Positions 27,717 to 40,131 of a stretch of DNA of 43,261 nt are shown piece after piece. Position numbers and translations under genes: made by a program. Every line of letters starts with the position of its first letter. Within the stretch, counting starts at the first letter, position 1. The notes under the pieces were generated by a model. That model did no database searches and was not told the origin of the DNA. It saw nothing but the letters and a program-made list of their open reading frames with translations. Source of the DNA: an uncultured Burkholderiales bacterium (GTDB lineage Bacteria > Pseudomonadota > Gammaproteobacteria > Burkholderiales > Burkholderiaceae_C); NCBI GenBank assembly GCA_902825995.1, contig CADEDE010000018.1:1-43261 (forward strand). Reading direction: 5' to 3'.

Positions 27717-27792
27717 GGGTTGTTAGCTCAGTCGGTAGAGCAGCGGACTTTTAATCCGTTGGTCGCAGGTTCGAATCCTGCACAACCCACCA
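27717..27792 (+). tRNA. tRNA-Lys (anticodon UUU)
   Basis: This is a 76-nt gene including an encoded CCA. The acceptor stem is GGGTTGT/ACAACCC. A TAGCTCAGTCGGTAGAGCA D arm is followed by an anticodon stem GCGGA/TCCGT with loop CTTTTAA, giving anticodon UUU, and a GGTTCGAATCC T arm. It is a substrate for the t6A modification completed by the TcdA protein encoded just upstream. Confidence 0.97.
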
Positions 27793-27807
27793 CTCGATTT
27801 AATCGAG
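27793..27807. repeat. Short inverted repeat between tRNA genes
   Basis: CTCGAT-TTA-ATCGAG is a perfect 6-bp stem with a 3-nt loop filling the 16-bp spacer between the two tRNAs. It is probably a processing spacer hairpin rather than a terminator, since no T-run follows. Confidence 0.45.
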
Positions 27808-27808
27808 C

Positions 27809-27884
27809 GGGTCCTTAGCTCAGTTGGTAGAGCAGCGGACTCTTAATCCGTTGGTCGAAGGTTCGAATCCTTCAGGGCCCACCA
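27809..27884 (+). tRNA. tRNA-Lys (anticodon CUU)
   Basis: This is a 76-nt gene with an encoded CCA. The acceptor GGGTCCT pairs with AGGGCCC with one U-G pair. The body is almost identical to the preceding tRNA, but the anticodon loop CTCTTAA gives CUU, reading AAG. The pair looks like a tandem duplication with one anticodon change. Its 3' end is the boundary between core genes and the accessory-looking DNA that follows, so it is a candidate integration site. Confidence 0.95.
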
Positions 27885-28357
27885 AATTCTCTCGTATAAA
27901 CAAGCACTTAGCGATCTGACGCTTCAATAGCAGTTTCGGGCCGCTGTGCCGTTGCCAGATCGTTGCCAGATTCTTGGGGCATGGAAGCTGCCTGCGCAGG
28001 GCGAGTAGGTCGTTGCGTGACTGGTAGTCAAGCGCCGAGTGGCATGCTCGAGGCGGGCGGGGAGTTCCGCTGACGAGCGTGCATCGAGTCGAGTACGCAA
28101 ACTTGTTCTCCTCGATGTTGCGGGGCGTTCCGTAGTCGTGCATGCCGAGCCGGCACCTCATCTCCTGAGTCGCGGAGTTGCCACGCGCATCACGGATGCT
28201 GGCGATGGGTGGCGCTGATCGCCGTTCGAAGGAAATGTGCGTGCGGCCGACGAGCATCTGGCGCACGTCCATGATGACGTTCGCAGCCGGAGAGCTGTCC
28301 GCCAGCGGCCCGCGGACCGGTGGCGGCGGACCGGTGAGCGTCGGCTGCGGACGCGGC
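27885..28357. other. Gene-poor stretch after the tRNAs
   Basis: I see no supportable gene here. The only sizeable minus-strand frame (to 28272) reads through the antisense of the tRNA and is a known artefact type. A short tandem repeat CGTTGCCAGAT occurs twice at about 27949-27970. The location beside a tRNA fits eroded mobile-element DNA, but no integrase motif is visible. Confidence 0.4.
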
Positions 28358-28693
28358 TCAGTGCGCGCGCACGCGCGACGACACCCAGCTTTCGATCTCG
28401 GACTGAAGCCAGGCGACTGCGCGCTTGGACAACTTTATCGGCACCGGGAACTGGTTCTGCGAGATGAGCTTGTAGATCGTTGACCTGGCCAGCCCGGTGA
28501 TCCGCATGACCATCGGCAAACGCAGCAGGATGGGTTGCGCGTCCATGATCTGGGCTGCCGCTTCTCGGGCTTGTGGGGGACCGCTGGGCGCCAGGCTGGC
28601 GGCGGCGAGGCCGGTACGGACGTGCGCCTTCGGTGCGACCTGGTGGGTCTCGAACGTCGGATCGGCAGTTTGGGTTGCGGGCTTGGCGGACAT
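28358..28693 (-). CDS. AlpA-family regulator (mobile element)
   Basis: Protein of 111 residues from ATG 28693. Further upstream in-frame starts exist but give an unstructured N-terminus. The C-terminal 50 residues are an AlpA/MerR-like helix-turn-helix: LLRLPMVMRITGLARSTIYK, then QNQFPVPIKLSKRAVAWLQSEIESWV. AlpA proteins regulate integrase or excision genes of P4-like prophages and integrative elements. Its presence next to a tRNA but without an integrase suggests a decayed element. The N-terminal Ala/Pro-rich 55 residues have no clear role. Confidence 0.8.
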   Translation of the reverse strand: MSAKPATQTADPTFETHQVAPKAHVRTGLAAASLAPSGPPQAREAAAQIMDAQPILLRLPMVMRITGLARSTIYKLISQNQFPVPIKLSKRAVAWLQSEIESWVSSRVRAH

Positions 28694-29358
28694 GGCTGAA
28701 GGCTCGTTCGGGCGTTGGCGCTTGAGCCGCAGCGCGCCCTGAGCGCTGCAACCGGTGGAGGTCCTTTCCTCGGCCGACACGCTGACCTCCGCGCGTGGGG
28801 GCTGAATTGGCTGTTCATCGGTGCGAGTCCGATCGGAGGTCCGAGCGGGTTCGCAGTTCATGCTCGACGCGATCGGATTCGTGTCGCGGGCACATTTCCG
28901 ACAGGCGAGGGTCGCCGTCGACACACGTCGAAGACTCATGGACGAAGCCGAGGAGTCAATCGGTCCATGTCGCGCCGAGCGGGCGCCGAGGGAATCCTAC
29001 GCAACCAGCGGTTGCGCGAGTGCTTGGAAGGTGATCCGGAGAACGGATCGAGATCAGATGCAGACTCTGCCGTCCTGGACGGCGTTGACCGACGGCGTCG
29101 GTTCGATCTGAGGGAGGGTCACGACCTCGAACGGCTGCTCTGGCCCGAAGCGGGTAGCGGTGACAGCACCGGCCTGCCAGAACTTCGCCATCGATGGCAG
29201 GCGCATTGCGACGGTCGAACCCATTAAATCGGCGCCGTCGCGCCTCGTCAAGCACGGCAGATCATCGGACCAGCATCGGCAAGATGAGCGTGCGACACCA
29301 CCGGTGCGAAGGTGGGACGGCAACGGCGCCGCTTGCGAACCGCCCGAGAAGAAAGCGA
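28694..29358. other. Degenerate stretch with one weak ORF
   Basis: Frames on both strands are short and look like mutual shadows. The only one I would keep, weakly, is a minus-strand frame at 29054-29224, listed separately. This may be eroded DNA of the same element as the helicase fragment. Confidence 0.35.
29054..29224 (-). CDS. Possible small hypothetical protein
   Basis: A 56-residue frame beginning MGSTVAMRLPSMAKFWQAGA and ending VQDGRVCI. It lies downstream of, and on the same strand as, the helicase fragment. Its composition looks protein-like, but there is no clear ribosome site and no family I recognise. It could equally be a remnant. Confidence 0.22.
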   Translation of the reverse strand: MGSTVAMRLPSMAKFWQAGAVTATRFGPEQPFEVVTLPQIEPTPSVNAVQDGRVCI

Positions 29359-32525: not shown

Positions 32526-34958
32526 ATGCCGGCCGGTCGCGTCATCGCAACTCTGGCGCTGTGCCTCTCAGCAGTGCACGCGTTGGCGGCAGAGCCGCTG
32601 GACCCACGCTTGGCCGAACGCATCGACAGCTTCGTCGCTGGTGAGGTCGAGGCATCCGGCATCCCGGGCGTGGCGATCGCGGTGCTGCAAGGCGGTCGCG
32701 CGCCGCATGTGCGCGGCTTCGGTCATGACGGGCGCGGCAAGGCGATCAGCGGCGACACGCCGTTTCCGATCGGCTCGCTGACCAAGTCCTTTACCGCATT
32801 GCTCGTGCGCCAGGCAATCGAAGCTGGTCGGCTGGACGCCGACGCGCCAGTGCAGCGCTATCTGCCGTGGTTTCGCGTCGCCGATGCCGAGGCCTCGTCG
32901 CGCATCACGCTGCGCCACCTGCTGAACCAGACGAGCGGCTTGTCACGCGCCGACGGCATCGCGCCGCTCCTGCAGGGCAGCCGGGCGAGCGTCGAAGAAC
33001 TCGCGCGCGGCATGAGCACCATCTCGTTGAATCGCGCGGTGGGGGAGCGCTTCGAGTACAGCAACTTGAACTATGTGCTGCTTGGCGCTGTGGTGCAGGC
33101 CGTGACAGGGGAATCGTGGGACGCACTGGTGCATGAACGCGTGCTGCGGCCGCTGGCGACGACGCACAGCCACACCGACCACGACAGCGCGCGGCGCGAC
33201 GGCATGACCGCGCTGCACCGCATGTGGTTCGGCGTGCCGGTGGCGCAGCAGACACAGCTGCTGCCGGGTTTCGCGCCGACCGGCAGCCTGGTGGCCAGCG
33301 CGAACGACATGGCGCGCTACCTGCAGATGCTGCTGGCCGGCGGCGACGCACCCGCGGGCCGCGTGCTCTCGGCGCAAGGCGTTGCGCAACTGCTCGCGCC
33401 CGGCTCGCCAGCGGCCCGCTCGACGCTGCTGTCGGCCGAATTCGCCTTCCGCTACGGCGAAGGCTGGTTCGTCGGCCCGTTCGGTGCCGCGGCCGATGCG
33501 CGCTGGCACCTCGGCAACCTGGCCTCGTTTGCCGCGTGGATGGTGCTGTTGCCCGAGTCGAAGCAGGCGGTCGTGATGCTGATCAATGCCAACACCGAGT
33601 TGCCGCTCGGCGAGGTCAACGCGGTGATGAGCCGCCTGCCGATCGGCGTGGTGAACCTGTTGCGCGAGCAAGCCGCGCCGCACGGACCGAGCCTGCGCGA
33701 GGCGTACCGGCGCTTCAATACCGTCGTGGCCGCTGCGCTGGTGGCGCTGGCGGCGCTGGCGTGGTGGGCCTGGCGTGCGCGGGCTGCATGGCCGGGTGTG
33801 TCGCTGGCGGTCGTGGCCGCGGCCTTGCTCGCGGCGCTGTACGCGACGGGCCTGAGGCCTGCGCTGCTTGCCGCCTTCGCGCCGGATCTGAGCTTGGGGT
33901 TGGCCGCGGCGGCGGCATTGCTGTGCTGGCCACTCGCATGGCGCATGGCGCGATCGGTGATCCGTGATCCGTCGCGCGGCACCGCCATGAAGCGCTCGCA
34001 CGGCGTCGTACTCGCGACCGTTGCCGCGTTGGGGGTGGCAACCGCGGTGATCCACGCACGGTTCAGGAGCGACCTCGCGCGCGCCGCCGAGCGCGCCGCG
34101 CAAGGCAGTGTCGTGCTGACCACGCGCTGCGGCCCGATCGAGTACCAGGAGTCGGGCCAAGGAATTCCGCTGCTGATGATCCACGGCAGCGGCGGCGGCC
34201 ACGACCAGGGCATGGCGTTTGCGCGTCCGCTCACGCAACACGGCATCCGCGTGATCGCGATGTCGCGCTTCGGCTACCTGCGCACGCCGCGGCCCGCCGA
34301 TGCGTCGCCCGAAGCGCAGGCCGATGCGCATGCATGCCTGCTCGATGCGCTGGGCATTGGCAAGGCGGTCGTGATGGGTGGCTCCGCAGGCGGCCCGTCG
34401 ACGCTGCAAACGGCGATCCGCCATCCCGACCGCGTCCGCGCGCTGGTGCTCGTCGTGCCGATCGCCTACAGGCCGCGCACGGTGGCCGATTCCGCGCCGC
34501 CAGTGTCGGACCGAAGCGACGCGATGCTGATGCGCTTGCTCGGATCGGACTTCCTGTTCTGGGCCGGCCTGCAGCTGGCGCGCGACCAGGTCGTCCGTTA
34601 CGTGCTGGCCACACCGCCCGAACGGGTCGCCGCGGCGAGCGCACAGGAACGCGCACGCGTGAATGCCATGGCCGACGGCATCTTGCCGGTGTCCACGCGC
34701 GTCGCGGGGCTGCGCGACGATACGGGGCTGGGCAAACGCCTCGGGCCCTACGCGCTGACAACGATCCGCGCGCCGACGCTCGTGATCAGCGCGCGCGACG
34801 ACGGCTTCGGCACCTACGCAGGTGCCGAGTACACGGCGAGCCAGATCGCCGGCGCGAAGTTCGTCGGCTTCGAGCGCGGCGGCCACCTGTGGGTGGGGCA
34901 CGACGATGAAGTGCGTGCCGAGATCGTCGATCTGATCAAACGATCGACCCCGCGATGA
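32526..34958 (+). CDS. Fusion of beta-lactamase-like serine hydrolase and alpha/beta hydrolase
   Basis: Protein of 810 residues with a signal peptide ending at LAA-EP. The first part (about 25-390) is a class C beta-lactamase/penicillin-binding fold, with S84-x-x-K87 in GSLTKS, Y178-S-N180 and a later HLGN in the KTG position. Two or three membrane helices follow (about 400-470). Residue 488 is an internal Met beginning a second membrane helix and an alpha/beta hydrolase domain (about 535-808). This has the oxyanion HGSGGG, nucleophile S620 in GGSAGGPS, Asp in SARDDGF and His in GGHLWVGH. Both halves keep their catalytic residues. It looks like two neighbouring genes fused by loss of a stop. 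The start of snoaL-like overlaps its stop. Confidence 0.85.
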   Translation: MPAGRVIATLALCLSAVHALAAEPLDPRLAERIDSFVAGEVEASGIPGVAIAVLQGGRAPHVRGFGHDGRGKAISGDTPFPIGSLTKSFTALLVRQAIEAGRLDADAPVQRYLPWFRVADAEASSRITLRHLLNQTSGLSRADGIAPLLQGSRASVEELARGMSTISLNRAVGERFEYSNLNYVLLGAVVQAVTGESWDALVHERVLRPLATTHSHTDHDSARRDGMTALHRMWFGVPVAQQTQLLPGFAPTGSLVASANDMARYLQMLLAGGDAPAGRVLSAQGVAQLLAPGSPAARSTLLSAEFAFRYGEGWFVGPFGAAADARWHLGNLASFAAWMVLLPESKQAVVMLINANTELPLGEVNAVMSRLPIGVVNLLREQAAPHGPSLREAYRRFNTVVAAALVALAALAWWAWRARAAWPGVSLAVVAAALLAALYATGLRPALLAAFAPDLSLGLAAAAALLCWPLAWRMARSVIRDPSRGTAMKRSHGVVLATVAALGVATAVIHARFRSDLARAAERAAQGSVVLTTRCGPIEYQESGQGIPLLMIHGSGGGHDQGMAFARPLTQHGIRVIAMSRFGYLRTPRPADASPEAQADAHACLLDALGIGKAVVMGGSAGGPSTLQTAIRHPDRVRALVLVVPIAYRPRTVADSAPPVSDRSDAMLMRLLGSDFLFWAGLQLARDQVVRYVLATPPERVAAASAQERARVNAMADGILPVSTRVAGLRDDTGLGKRLGPYALTTIRAPTLVISARDDGFGTYAGAEYTASQIAGAKFVGFERGGHLWVGHDDEVRAEIVDLIKRSTPR

Positions 34959-35809: not shown

Positions 35810-37495
35810 GTGAGGGTCTGCTATCTGGGACGACGGAGCGGTCGGCAAATGCCAGCGCCACAGGGGGCGGGCGATGTCATCGAGCTCCTTTGGGACAACT
35901 GGGACGACTTCGGCTACAAAACGAGTTTCGCGACCACCTGCCGCATCGGCGGCGAGCTCGTGGACATCGGTGCGATCCGCCTTCTTGTTGGCGGTCACTC
36001 GACGTCCGCCACTGCGCTCGACAAACTGCGTGAGAGCGGCTGGAACGGCACGTTCCCGCCACCCGGCCTTGATTACATCTCCGTGCCGCTGGAGATCACC
36101 TTCTACCAGCAGGTGAAGGCGCACCTCGGCGTCGCGATAGCCATTGAAGTCGCTCATGCACTGCGGGACGCCAGTCTGTTGGTCCGCAGCCTGGACGAGC
36201 CCGCCCAAAAGCTGGTCGGCACGAAGGGCTTCAAAGACTCCCTGCAACGCGAGCGCGGGAGCGTGACTGCCTACCTTGACGGTTGGAAAGTTCTTGAGGA
36301 CTTGGCGATCGCCGTCCAGGACTTTGATTTCACTTTCCAAGACGTATTCGACGCGACATCGACACTAACGCTGAATTTCGACGCCGATGCCCTGCTGCCG
36401 CACGACATCAATGTGCTGATCGGGCCCAACGGGGTCGGCAAGTCCCGTGTGCTCCATCAAATGGTTCAGTCTTGGATCAAACCAGATGAAGAGGCAGCAG
36501 TCGGTTTCGCCGAACAGCCGAACCTCAGCCAAGTTGTGGTGGTCTCGTACAGTCCGTTCGAGCACTTCCCGGTCGACATGGAGGGCCTCAAGGTCCGGGA
36601 TAAGGATGTCTACCGCTACTTTGGCTTCAGAGGCCGCTCGGGCGAAGCACGGCGAATTCGGATCTCGCACGAATTCCCCAAGACAAATGCGGCGCAATCC
36701 CTCATCGCTTGCCTAGCAGATGACCAGAAGTACGCGGCGATCGAGGACTGGGCTCGCAAGGTCGGCACCGTCGAGACAGTGCTACGCGCCGCGTTTCAGT
36801 TCGACTTCGCGGCCGTGGAGATCGAATCCGGCAAGCACGTACGGTCTCTGTACATCAACATGGATGACGTGGCGGGTCCCGCCTACATTCAAGTAGCTGA
36901 CCGTCGCTACGTACCGGTTGCGACCCACACGATGAATCACGCGAACCCCCAACGCCTACTCGCTGCCTGCGTGGCCAAGTCGGGCGTGGCGTTCATCAGG
37001 GATGGAGAACCGATCGAGCTCAGCTCGGGCCAACGGCTCTTCGCGTACATCGTGATCGACTTACTCGGCGCTATTCGACGCAACAGCCTGGTGTTGATCG
37101 ACGAGCCTGAGCTGTTCCTCCATCCCACGTTGGAGATTCAATTCCTTGAGATGCTCAAAGAGATCCTTGCCAGCTTCAACTCAAAGGCCTTGCTGGCAAC
37201 TCACTCTGAGGTCATCGTCCGCGAGGTTCCGGCCGACTGCGTACACGTGTTTGAGCGCACCGACGACGGGTTGGTGATCAAGCACCCCCCTTTCCAGACG
37301 TTCGGTGGCGACATCCAGCGAATCTCGTCGTACGTCTTCGGCGACAACGCCGTGTCCAAGCCCTTCGAGAAATGGTTGAGGCTGCAACTGAAGGAACACG
37401 GTTCAGCCAAAGCCCTCATCAAAGCGATGGGCGACAACCTCAACGAAGAACTTCTTGTGCAGATCAAGTCCATGGACGATGACAACGCATGGTGA
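35810..37495 (+). CDS. AAA/ABC-like ATPase of a putative Septu-like defence system
   Basis: Protein of 561 residues from GTG 35810, well placed behind AAGGGGGCAGG. ATG 35849 is an alternative. Residues about 20-180 form an N-terminal region (WDNWDDFGYKTSF and IGAIRLLVGG) that I do not recognise. The ATPase shows Walker A GPNGVGKS (about 205-212), ABC signature ELSSGQR, Walker B LVLIDEPELFLHP (D431/E432) and H-loop LATHSE (H465), the pattern of SMC/AAA_15-type ATPases such as PtuA. No TOPRIM nuclease domain is evident at the C-terminus. It overlaps the HNH gene by 7 bp, so both are co-translated. The pair is likely an anti-phage module of Septu kind, although Septu was defined on other families. 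Confidence 0.8.
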   Translation: MRVCYLGRRSGRQMPAPQGAGDVIELLWDNWDDFGYKTSFATTCRIGGELVDIGAIRLLVGGHSTSATALDKLRESGWNGTFPPPGLDYISVPLEITFYQQVKAHLGVAIAIEVAHALRDASLLVRSLDEPAQKLVGTKGFKDSLQRERGSVTAYLDGWKVLEDLAIAVQDFDFTFQDVFDATSTLTLNFDADALLPHDINVLIGPNGVGKSRVLHQMVQSWIKPDEEAAVGFAEQPNLSQVVVVSYSPFEHFPVDMEGLKVRDKDVYRYFGFRGRSGEARRIRISHEFPKTNAAQSLIACLADDQKYAAIEDWARKVGTVETVLRAAFQFDFAAVEIESGKHVRSLYINMDDVAGPAYIQVADRRYVPVATHTMNHANPQRLLAACVAKSGVAFIRDGEPIELSSGQRLFAYIVIDLLGAIRRNSLVLIDEPELFLHPTLEIQFLEMLKEILASFNSKALLATHSEVIVREVPADCVHVFERTDDGLVIKHPPFQTFGGDIQRISSYVFGDNAVSKPFEKWLRLQLKEHGSAKALIKAMGDNLNEELLVQIKSMDDDNAW

Positions 37496-38328
37496 TGAAG
37501 CTGCCGATGCCGGCGTTTGACAGCGTTCAGCTTGTCGGGGACGTGGTCGCGGAGCGAGCCGGAGGTGTCAACGCCGAGTTCTTCAAGGGTATCAAGAAGG
37601 AGTGGGCCATACGCGTCCAGCAATACATCGACTCCGCCGGTGCGCCGCCGACGGTTAGCACATGGCCAGGAATCAAGGTCAGGGCGAAGTCCTTCCTGAA
37701 TCTCTACTTGTCTCCCGCCGCGGACTCAGTGCAGTTGCCGATCCTCAAAGCGATGCGGCAGCACGAATTGACGGTGTGTCCCGCCTGCGGTGAGCTCGGC
37801 CGGCCGAACACGCTGGACCACTATCTTCCCAAGGGCACGTATCCACACTTTTGCATCACGCCGGTCAACCTTTTCCCCATGTGTGACGCGTGCCAGCTCG
37901 CCAAGGGGACGAAGGTGGGCGATGCAGCGTCGCCGCGCTTCTTTCTCCATCCGTACTTCGACGCATTCGTTGGCGAGGAAGTGCTTCGTCTAGAGATAAG
38001 GCCGCCCTTCGACGCGCCATCCTTCTCGCTCGACATCGCCGCGGGCTTGGAACTCGAACAGGAAGATCTCGTCCGTACCCATGTGCGGGAGCTCGACATA
38101 GAACGGCGCTATGCGGCCTTCTTTCGCAGTCAGCATCGTCGGTTGCTCCGTTTGGTCAGCGGGATGCGAGCTAGCGGCCAGAACGTCGAGCAGACATTGG
38201 CGATCTTCAAGCAAGGCGTCGCCGATCCTTCTCCGAACACCTGGGAGCACGTGTTCTACGCCGCAGTGCTGGCCAGTCCCAGTCTCGTCGACTACTTAGC
38301 TAACAAGCCCCTGCCAAAGTACCTGTAG
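37489..38328 (+). CDS. HNH endonuclease of the ATPase-HNH pair (PtuB-like)
   Basis: Protein of 279 residues from ATG 37489. The HNH/zinc core lies at about 97-140: C97-x2-C100, D110-H111 in TLDHYLPKG, then N127 in PVNLFP and C132-x2-C135 followed by QLAKG. This is the layout of HNH nucleases with a treble-clef zinc. The remaining residues are helical without a known domain. PtuB partners have a similar HNH fold. The IS256 element begins 31 bp beyond the stop, so the gene itself appears intact. Confidence 0.82.
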   Translation: MVMKLPMPAFDSVQLVGDVVAERAGGVNAEFFKGIKKEWAIRVQQYIDSAGAPPTVSTWPGIKVRAKSFLNLYLSPAADSVQLPILKAMRQHELTVCPACGELGRPNTLDHYLPKGTYPHFCITPVNLFPMCDACQLAKGTKVGDAASPRFFLHPYFDAFVGEEVLRLEIRPPFDAPSFSLDIAAGLELEQEDLVRTHVRELDIERRYAAFFRSQHRRLLRLVSGMRASGQNVEQTLAIFKQGVADPSPNTWEHVFYAAVLASPSLVDYLANKPLPKYL

Positions 38329-38349
38329 GGAGGTCTGGCAGTAGGTGGC

Positions 38350-38358
38350 GGCTGCGGA
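38350..38358 (+). repeat. Target-site duplication, left copy
   Basis: GGCTGCGGA (38350-38358) is repeated exactly at 39805-39813, flanking the IS256-family element. Nine bases is within the 8-9 bp usual for this family. Confidence 0.8.
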
Positions 38359-39804
38359 GGTGATGTCCCAGGCGTAGTTGGAACGTGAAGGCGGCGGTTT
38401 CCAGGTGAGTTCGACAGAATCGAGCTTGCCAACCTGAAACCATCGACGAGGAAACCGCCATGAAGGATCGTAAGACAAAGACAGTCTTGAGGGCCGTGCA
38501 TCGCAACGACCGAGCGCAGATCAAGCGGGTGCTGGCGGGCAGCGGCCAAGCGCTGTTGCCGATGTTGGAGCTGCTTGAAGGGGCGCAAGCGAGCATCGAC
38601 GAACTGATGCACGAGACCGCGGTGGCGGTGGTCGAGCAGTTGCTGGTGCTGTCGGCGCAGGAGCTTGCCGGGGCTAAGCAGCGCGGGCGCGACGGCGGGG
38701 ACGTGCTGTGGCACGGCGCCCAACGCGGCGTGGTGGCGCTGGCCGAGCGGCAGTTGCGCGTGCAGCGTCCGAGGCTGCGCGACAAGAGCGGGCACGAGGT
38801 GCAGGTGCCGGCCTACGAGCGGCTGCGCGATGACGCCAACATCGGCGCGCGCGTGCGCGACATCATGGTCGCGGGCGTGTCCACGCGGCGCTACGCGCAG
38901 GTGCTGCCCGAAGCGGCGGGCACGGTGGGGGTGTCCAAGAGCACCGTGTCGCGGCGCTTCATCGAGGCCAGCGCCGCGCAGTTGGCCGCGCTCAACGAGC
39001 GCAGCCTGGCCGAGTTGGCGGTGCTGGTGATCTACATCGACGGCATCGTCGTGGACGGCCACCACATCATCGCTGCCGTCGGCGTGGACGAGGCCGGCGA
39101 CAAGCACATGCTGGGTCTGGCGCTGGGTGCCAGCGAGAACGCGCAGGTGGTCAAGGATCTGCTGCGCCGGCTGATCGAGCGCGGGCTCGACGCCGACGTG
39201 TCGTACCTGTTCGTGATTGACGGCTCCACCGCGCTGCGCAGCGCGATCGACGAGATGTTCGGCCAGCGCGCGCACGTCCAACGTTGCCGTACGCACAAGC
39301 TGCGCAACGTCCTGGAGCGGCTGCCCAAGACCGAGGCGGCGCAGACCAAGGCGGTGATGATGGCCGCCTACAAGCTCGATCCCAAGCAGGGCATGGCCAA
39401 GATGAACAAGCAGGCCCAATGGCTCGAGCGCGAGCACGCGGATGCGGCGGCCTCGCTGCGCGAAGGGCTGCACGAGACCTTCACCGTCAATGCATTGGGT
39501 CTGCCGCCCATGCTGACGCGGTGCCTGTGCACCACCAACATCATCGAGAACCCCAACGGCATCGTCAGGCGCACGGGTCGGCGCGTCACGCGCTATCGCG
39601 ATGCCGACATGGCGATGCGCTGGACGGCAGCCGGGTTCATCGAAGCACAGAAGTCGTTCCGCAAGATCCAGGGCATCAAGGACCTCTGGATACTCAAAGC
39701 TGCATTGGGCCGGCCTGACAAGCAAGCTCACGTTGACGAGGCGAAGTTGGCCGCGTAACGTGTCCCGCACCGCCGCCGGTTGCAACTACCAGTGGGACAT
39801 CGCC
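38359..39804 (+). mobile_element. IS256-family insertion sequence, complete
   Basis: An element of about 1446 bp. The left end begins GGTGATGTCCCA and the right end, read inward on the other strand, GGCGATGTCCCA. Both continue with GTAGTTG-AAC and then CGGCGGT, so the imperfect inverted repeats extend over about 35 bp. A 9-bp direct repeat flanks it, and the transposase frame is uninterrupted. These facts point to a relatively recent insertion. It landed just behind the HNH gene stop without breaking a recognisable gene. Confidence 0.9.
38460..39758 (+). CDS. IS256-family (Mutator) transposase
   Basis: Full-length 432-residue transposase from ATG 38460 behind GAGGAAACC. DDE residues appear in VIYIDGIVVDGHH, FVIDGSTALR and the TTNIIENPNG region. 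QRCRTHKLRNVLERLPK is the family's characteristic CxxHxxRN-like stretch. Both inverted repeats lie outside the frame, so it is likely functional. Confidence 0.95.
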   Translation: MKDRKTKTVLRAVHRNDRAQIKRVLAGSGQALLPMLELLEGAQASIDELMHETAVAVVEQLLVLSAQELAGAKQRGRDGGDVLWHGAQRGVVALAERQLRVQRPRLRDKSGHEVQVPAYERLRDDANIGARVRDIMVAGVSTRRYAQVLPEAAGTVGVSKSTVSRRFIEASAAQLAALNERSLAELAVLVIYIDGIVVDGHHIIAAVGVDEAGDKHMLGLALGASENAQVVKDLLRRLIERGLDADVSYLFVIDGSTALRSAIDEMFGQRAHVQRCRTHKLRNVLERLPKTEAAQTKAVMMAAYKLDPKQGMAKMNKQAQWLEREHADAAASLREGLHETFTVNALGLPPMLTRCLCTTNIIENPNGIVRRTGRRVTRYRDADMAMRWTAAGFIEAQKSFRKIQGIKDLWILKAALGRPDKQAHVDEAKLAA

Positions 39805-39813
39805 GGCTGCGGA
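39805..39813 (+). repeat. Target-site duplication, right copy
   Basis: An exact second copy of GGCTGCGGA, directly abutting the right inverted repeat of the insertion sequence. Confidence 0.8.
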
Positions 39814-40131
39814 TGGGGTATTTGCAAGCCAATTCAGCACAAGGTCCGGTCTCGTCCTCTGGGTGCCAACCTTTGCCGGCGGCAACGCGGCAGCGCACTC
39901 ATATCAGCAGTCGTTCGATTGCCGACCTCCAACGACAGCAGATGGCCGGTTTGACGCGTTCGTCAATGGCCGCTTCTTCAACACTGCGAGAAGCAAACTG
40001 TCGCGGACGCACCAACGCGACTGGGGCTGACGGCTCAACGGGCTCAACAGGCCCTACATCGAGAGACTCAACGCACAGTTCGCCGGAGTAACTCATGACC
40101 GGTGACACCGCCCGCTCGAGGCGAAAAAAGG
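39814..40131. other. Gene-poor stretch between IS and helicase gene
   Basis: About 318 bp with no supportable gene. GGTGAC at 40101-40106 and GTCACC at 40131-40136 form a wide inverted repeat enclosing an A6 run (T6 on the minus strand), placed just past the minus-strand helicase stop. It may help terminate that gene. Confidence 0.35.

Follow-up and report, generated by a model that had tools for sequence, protein, structure and literature searches.

What kind of system is formed by an ATPase gene and an HNH nuclease gene that overlap in the genome of an uncultured Burkholderiales bacterium, and what is the extra domain at the front of its ATPase? The window examined here is the whole 43,261 nucleotides of contig CADEDE010000018.1 (assembly GCA_902825995.1, positions 1 to 43,261). 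The original prediction, made from the letters of this DNA, recognised in the pair the pattern of the Septu (PtuA/PtuB) anti-phage systems. We find that the locus is a real, intact, Septu-like candidate defence locus of a kind already known, and that its best name is PDC-M01, a candidate system already catalogued in PADLOC. Judging from sequence comparison and by analogy with characterised relatives, the two genes very probably make up an anti-phage nuclease system of the PtuAB type, in the family that also includes Ea59-Ea31 of phage lambda.

The assignment comes from profiles that cover both genes. The ATPase matches PDC-M01A (PDLC04238) at E 5.1e-236 over residues 2-558, and the HNH protein matches PDC-M01B (PDLC04270) at E 7.9e-110 over residues 1-278; because these matches are full length, a chance origin of the two open reading frames (ORFs) is excluded. 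The PADLOC search proposed along with the original prediction therefore places both genes in a defence candidate. A second, weaker match links the ATPase to Septu PtuA1 (PDLC00282, 1.2e-46), while above the Pfam cut-off it matches AAA_15 and AAA_21 only. The Septu reading thus survives in the architecture, in this ATPase profile and in the fold ranking described below, but PDC-M01 names the pair better. The motifs that had been read from the sequence, namely Walker A, ABC signature, Walker B and H-loop in the ATPase and a CxxC-DH-N-CxxC core in its partner, were all confirmed (Table 1) in alignments of 70 ATPases (the window protein and 69 of the 91 fetched loci) and 60 HNH proteins (the window protein and 59 loci), hand-picked as near full length. 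Residues L437-P439, including H438, and F510 are also invariant in the 70 ATPases, and the spacing between H111 and N127 (16) equals that of the essential H75 and N91 reported in the accessible text on Septu EcB88 PtuB (PMC13096335). The predicted 7-bp overlap of the two genes is present at 37489-37495. It recurs in the nearest annotated relative, on Rhizobium leguminosarum plasmid pRL31b3, whose ATPase is 59.2% identical over 99% and starts in the identical alignment column, in agreement with the GTG start.

Table 1. Features of the ATPase-HNH pair and of the adjoining insertion sequence (positions in the window)
Feature	Position	Strand	Remarks
ATPase gene (PDC-M01A; PtuA-like; Ea59 family)	35810-37495	+	561 aa, GTG start
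N-terminal domain of the ATPase, residues 1-165 (~165)	35810-36304	+	extent from model secondary structure and Walker A position
Walker A, residues 205-212 (GPNGVGKS)	36422-36445	+	N207, G210, K211 invariant 70/70
ABC signature, residues 404-408 (LSSGQ)	37019-37033	+	S405, G407 invariant 70/70
Walker B, residues 427-434 (LVLIDEPE)	37088-37111	+	D431-E434 invariant 70/70
H-loop, residues 464-466 (THS), H465	37199-37207	+	invariant 70/70
HNH nuclease gene (PDC-M01B; PtuB-like; Ea31 family)	37489-38328	+	279 aa, ATG start
HNH core, C97-C100...D110-H111...N127...C132-C135	37777-37893	+	seven residues invariant 60/60
Insertion sequence, Mutator-family (IS256-like); transposase 38460-39758	38359-39804	+	Transposase_mut 2.6e-38; not part of the system

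Predicted structures point in the same direction. AlphaFold2 modelled the ATPase with a pLDDT of 90.2 and a pTM of 0.88, and the HNH protein with values of 95.5 and 0.90. When the ATPase model was compared with the PDB by Foldseek, the 50 matches listed, of 117 at E<=0.001, were all Septu or retron PtuA entries (5.4e-11 to 1.2e-5), and a profile search of solved structures ranked retron PtuA first; against BFVD the model found generic ATPases, with no Ea59 among the 50 of 616 matches listed. The first five Foldseek matches of the HNH model are complexes of retron Ec78/Eco7 and of E. coli Septu PtuAB (E 0.0027-0.095), the latter known from PDB entry titles. In these entries the HNH/PtuB chain is 9vh1_F and 9nnb_J, as named by the profile search, and 8eea_G, as inferred from its length. 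Retron PtuB also came first in the profile search with the HNH protein (1.6e-4).

Since most of these nearest structures are PtuA and PtuB of retron-Eco7, Ec78 and Ec83, one might suspect the effector pair of a type I-A retron, with the reverse transcriptase lost or located elsewhere. Retrons use msDNA and reverse transcriptase. However, no reverse transcriptase was found among ten window ORFs scanned with Pfam (no msr-msd search was made), nor among the 25 commonest of the 112 Pfam families matched by 117 neighbouring ORFs of 20 relatives, and the five PDB matches of a profile built from the N-terminal domain include no retron PtuA chain. We regard such an origin as very improbable.

Several observations weigh against classing the pair as a PtuAB-type defence system. 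The TM-scores of the ATPase model to PtuA are low (query-normalised 0.28-0.39, with rmsd of 7.4-15.6 Å), no PtuB fold matches the HNH model at E 0.001 or better, and generic HNH nucleases (6.1e-4) follow closely behind retron PtuB in the profile search. For the HNH protein, Pfam gives no match and NCBIfam only chance-level ones; none of the NCBIfam matches listed for the pair is above cut-off. PADLOC holds PDC-M01 separate from Septu, and the PDC-x systems are unpublished candidates according to the accessible part of a survey (PMC11811056). Lastly, none of the ten flanking ORFs of the window scanned with Pfam is a defence gene.

The family assignment also leads to phage lambda. A tblastn search against phages found lambda Ea59, and in the lambda record ea31 lies directly downstream of ea59 and overlaps it (the pair occupies L016:2488-4952, 2465 bases). 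Ea59 matches PDC-M01A at 3.9e-201 and PtuA1 PDLC00282 at 5.4e-184, and Ea31 matches PDC-M01B at 5.8e-113; by these profile matches, the two lambda proteins are clear, full-length members of PDC-M01A and PDC-M01B. Although the PADLOC profiles imply a link between Ea59-Ea31 and Septu, no literature making it was found within reach of our searches. The role of lambda ea59-ea31 is, to our knowledge, unclear. Both genes are marked as non-essential in a CRISPRi screen of lambda, in the part of the report available (PMC10695390).

Related pairs also reside in bacterial chromosomes. Among 5426 complete E. coli genomes, lambda's own pair was matched in 91, with at least 80% of the pair in one place in 68 of these, and an Ea59-like pair in 90, at 94.1-100% identity among the matches listed. 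E. coli pairs that are 94% identical occupy unrelated sites. One copy is flanked by icd and a frameshifted intE, the icd position being shared by the two records examined there; another is in an island beside tRNA-Thr. The DE3 phage records retain the start of ea59, and BLR(DE3) and BL21(DE3), the two DE3 strains among the matches listed, match only the first 870 of the 2465 bases of the lambda pair. The tRNA-Thr island is that of E. coli PSS-13 (L141:972-12344); besides the Ea59-like pair, it carries conjugation genes of the trb type and a DUF4297 gene.

Across more distant relatives, the two genes keep together. When genome contigs were scanned with a 9-row alignment, 303 candidates were confirmed and the best 80 of them kept; the same alignment found 11 loci in viral contigs, where the ATPase sequence alone had found nothing. 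The HNH partner is directly downstream in all 80 genome loci and in 8 of the 11 viral loci (87 of the 91 by ORF search and locus L079 by frame search); the loci that have none, L105-L107, are weak viral matches (E 4e-8 to 3e-5). The surroundings of 20 loci were compared with control stretches on the same contigs. These loci were picked, not at random, from 39 of the 80 genome loci for the space that their contigs offered for a control, and the paired controls were placed by hand and are likewise not random. Gene calling followed a simple longest-ORF rule, and 2 of the 120 control ORFs, each the largest at its locus, were left out. At 1e-10, the 117 neighbouring ORFs match 421 PADLOC families and the 118 control ORFs match 46. 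These tallies count profile families rather than proteins, restriction systems have many families, and Old, AriA and GajA models can share one ATPase. Among the first 25 families listed per search, those best represented in the neighbours include the R, M and S models of type I restriction with 3-4 members each, Old and AriA with 4 each (possibly the same ATPases), GajA with 3 and, among Pfam families, HamA and phage integrase with 2 each. Control ORFs also gave matches, to mad3 and mad8 (two members each) and to a GajB-like helicase, RTasHel and others (one each). Taken together, a mobile and defence-related context is supported for the relatives.

This context bears on whether the pair might serve mobile elements as a toxin-antitoxin-like or stabilisation module and not be an anti-phage defence. 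Lambda, plasmids, viral contigs and a prophage remnant all contain members, and toxin-antitoxin genes lie close to some of these. On the other hand, restriction, Gabija and other defence families are enriched around chromosomal members, and the close kin PtuAB systems protect against phages, as stated in the accessible portions of two reports (PMC13096335, PMC11555353). We therefore think a stabilisation module improbable and favour a defence system.

The second part of the question concerns the domain of about 165 residues that precedes the ATPase core. In the 70 aligned ATPases, W31, D33, Y99, D120 and R147 are conserved in 69-70, with D33, Y99 and R147 invariant, and the domain is conserved as far as phage lambda Ea59. 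Since it is part of the PDC-M01A models and conserved in relatives, it is a feature of the clade and not peculiar to the window protein. The original prediction had described this region as unrecognised and as not known from PtuA. The first description holds for Pfam and the PDB, where no credible match was found, but not for PADLOC, whose PDC-M01A models include it; the second agrees with the layout of Septu EcB88 PtuA, although the domain is conserved throughout the PDC-M01/Ea59 clade. As candidates, the five PDB matches to the N-terminal profile, which include protein A constructs (best E 0.0038) and SarX (about 0.1), and the Pfam matches of 61 N-terminal domains, spread over 15 families with one member matched in each (best E 0.0084), were judged to be due to chance. 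In PADLOC at E 0.001, the 61 domains matched PDC-M01A models, PtuA1 PDLC00282 (61/61), PDC-S34 (31/61) and, once, ZorA.

Could the pair then simply be a canonical Septu system in which this region is a minor extension without a separate function? PtuA1 PDLC00282 is matched not only by the window ATPase and lambda Ea59 but also by an E. coli relative (2e-239), and among HNH relatives one from Vibrio matches PtuB1 (2.6e-7). In addition, the survey cited above dropped PDC-M01 calls that coincided with Septu calls and retained Septu, according to the accessible part of its text (PMC11811056). However, the Walker A lysine stands at residues 195-250 in all 70 aligned ATPases (median 206), compared with residue 43 in EcB88 PtuA, the single Septu PtuA whose position was compared, as given in the accessible text (PMC13096335). 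With its lysine at residue 43, EcB88 PtuA has no room for a domain of about 165 residues. Moreover, the domain has its own invariant residues, and no PtuB model is among the 25 of 41 PADLOC matches listed for the window HNH protein. A canonical Septu system with a functionless extension appears unlikely, and PDC-M01 stays the better name.

In searches with the N-terminal domain alone, 7 of the 398 genomes from the window's phylum had it, as did 2 of 398 from the phylum of another genome (G078); both counts take in the centre genome, and the ORFs are of 495-587 aa save one of 104 aa. No other architecture was seen in these two sets. When plasmids were searched with one N-terminal domain, 44 records matched, and the 20 listed are annotated as AAA family ATPases or unannotated. 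The matches to PDC-S34 (PDLC05000), a single-gene PADLOC candidate, at best 3.6e-11, hint at reuse of the domain on another enzyme. PDLC05000 was matched in 31 of 274 genomes of the window's class and in 15 of 398 of the phylum of G078. All but one of the matches listed end at or before model position 351, in the first part of the model, and are on proteins with a phosphatase-like start, which we take to be a HAD-type motif. The exception (G797:C7:77506-77862), which covers model positions 310-416, forms the N-terminus of an Ea59-type ATPase, so the end of the model resembles the N-terminal domain. No fusion protein was found: among the PDLC05000 matches examined (20 of 32 and 10 of 15), the N-terminal domain was absent at E<0.001, with a best value of 0.0067. 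A real fusion of phosphatase and N-terminal domain is thus not demonstrated.

How might such a pair work? By analogy with the Septu and retron-Eco7 PtuAB systems, the ATPase, consisting of the N-terminal domain and an ABC-type ATPase core, would probably form a complex with the HNH protein and control it, the latter being the putative effector nuclease. In the accessible parts of the respective reports, PtuAB of Septu EcB88 cleaves tRNA-Tyr and needs its Walker and HNH residues (PMC13096335), PtuAB of retron-Eco7 also cleaves tRNA-Tyr (PMC11555353), and another Septu is cited as acting on DNA (in PMC11555353). From these kin, we infer an ATPase-controlled HNH nuclease that is released on infection. 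An infection cue, possibly read through the N-terminal domain or the nucleotide state, would free the nuclease, which would then cut nucleic acid, either host tRNA or phage DNA, and the infection would abort. The N-terminal domain may sense infection, as the original prediction suggested, or regulate the ATPase-HNH complex, and it is a natural candidate for the reader of the trigger or for a regulator of assembly. It is tempting to go further and to view the Ea59/PDC-M01 clade as a separate, third branch of PtuAB defence, with a possibly modular N-terminal domain that senses infection and is absent from canonical Septu, and with an apparently intact copy in lambda; we offer this view tentatively and consider it doubtful at present. 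If it were true, a PtuAB-type defence, unmentioned in the literature searched, would be present in lambda lysogens.

Regarding the locus itself, its placement in accessory DNA, as originally proposed, is supported by a G+C content of 0.595 for the gene pair against 0.667 for the window and by the lack of an HNH-family match in all four same-genus genomes (61-97% complete). Among near relatives, the HNH family is present in 6 of 60 genomes, the window's own genome counted, and one of these six is a weak match (7e-5) with an internal stop. The further idea of a mobile defence cassette holds for the relatives, which lie near defence and mobile genes, but the flanking genes scanned in the window are those of an insertion sequence (IS) and ordinary genes, not a defence island. 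SnoaL-like and serine-hydrolase genes lie upstream; the IS, a UvrD-type helicase and DUF72 follow downstream. The IS begins within about 30 bp past the HNH stop codon and leaves the pair uninterrupted. Its inverted arms (38359-38384 and 39779-39804) are imperfect, and its outer ends may extend slightly further; no second full copy (query 38346-39816) was found in the assembly, whose 140 contigs may have collapsed repeats. A clean empty site could not be defined: in the four other genomes of the genus, the SnoaL gene was not found and all matches to the helicase are distant.

Two further features of the window were noted. In an 810-aa ORF at 32526-34958, a serine hydrolase domain of the beta-lactamase type (residues 34-362) is joined to an alpha/beta hydrolase domain (548-788). 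At 27717-28939, two tandem tRNA-Lys genes with TTT and CTT anticodons precede a gene for an AlpA-like regulator on the opposite strand; this stretch may be a site where a mobile element integrates.

As a defence locus, the pair is a further member of a catalogued candidate system, and the implications of the family assignment matter more. The remaining interest lies in the lambda membership and in the uncharacterised N-terminal domain: the former makes the PDC-M01 hypothesis testable in laboratory strains, and the latter, with W31, D33, Y99, D120 and R147, offers a defined target for structural and mutational study.

Compared with known systems, the pair shares with Septu the combination of an ABC ATPase with an HNH nuclease, the PtuA1 profile match and the best-ranked folds, but differs in the position of the Walker A lysine (residue 211 in the window protein), and the link of the HNH protein to PtuB is drawn from fold ranking and the HNH core only. 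With the type I-A retrons (Eco7/Ec78, Ec83), it shares the top Foldseek matches of both proteins, while Walker A of retron Ec78 PtuA lies within residues 84-111. From PDC-M01, whose name in the accessible text of the PADLOC paper (PMC8565338) is not found even as 'PDC' while Septu is mentioned, we detected no difference: both window genes match over their full length, are adjacent and overlap. Lastly, lambda Ea59-Ea31 is phage-borne, adjoining int and its recombination-site features, and is only about 23-24% identical to the window proteins, yet it has the same gene order, the N-terminal domain and the Walker, signature, H-loop and HNH core residues.

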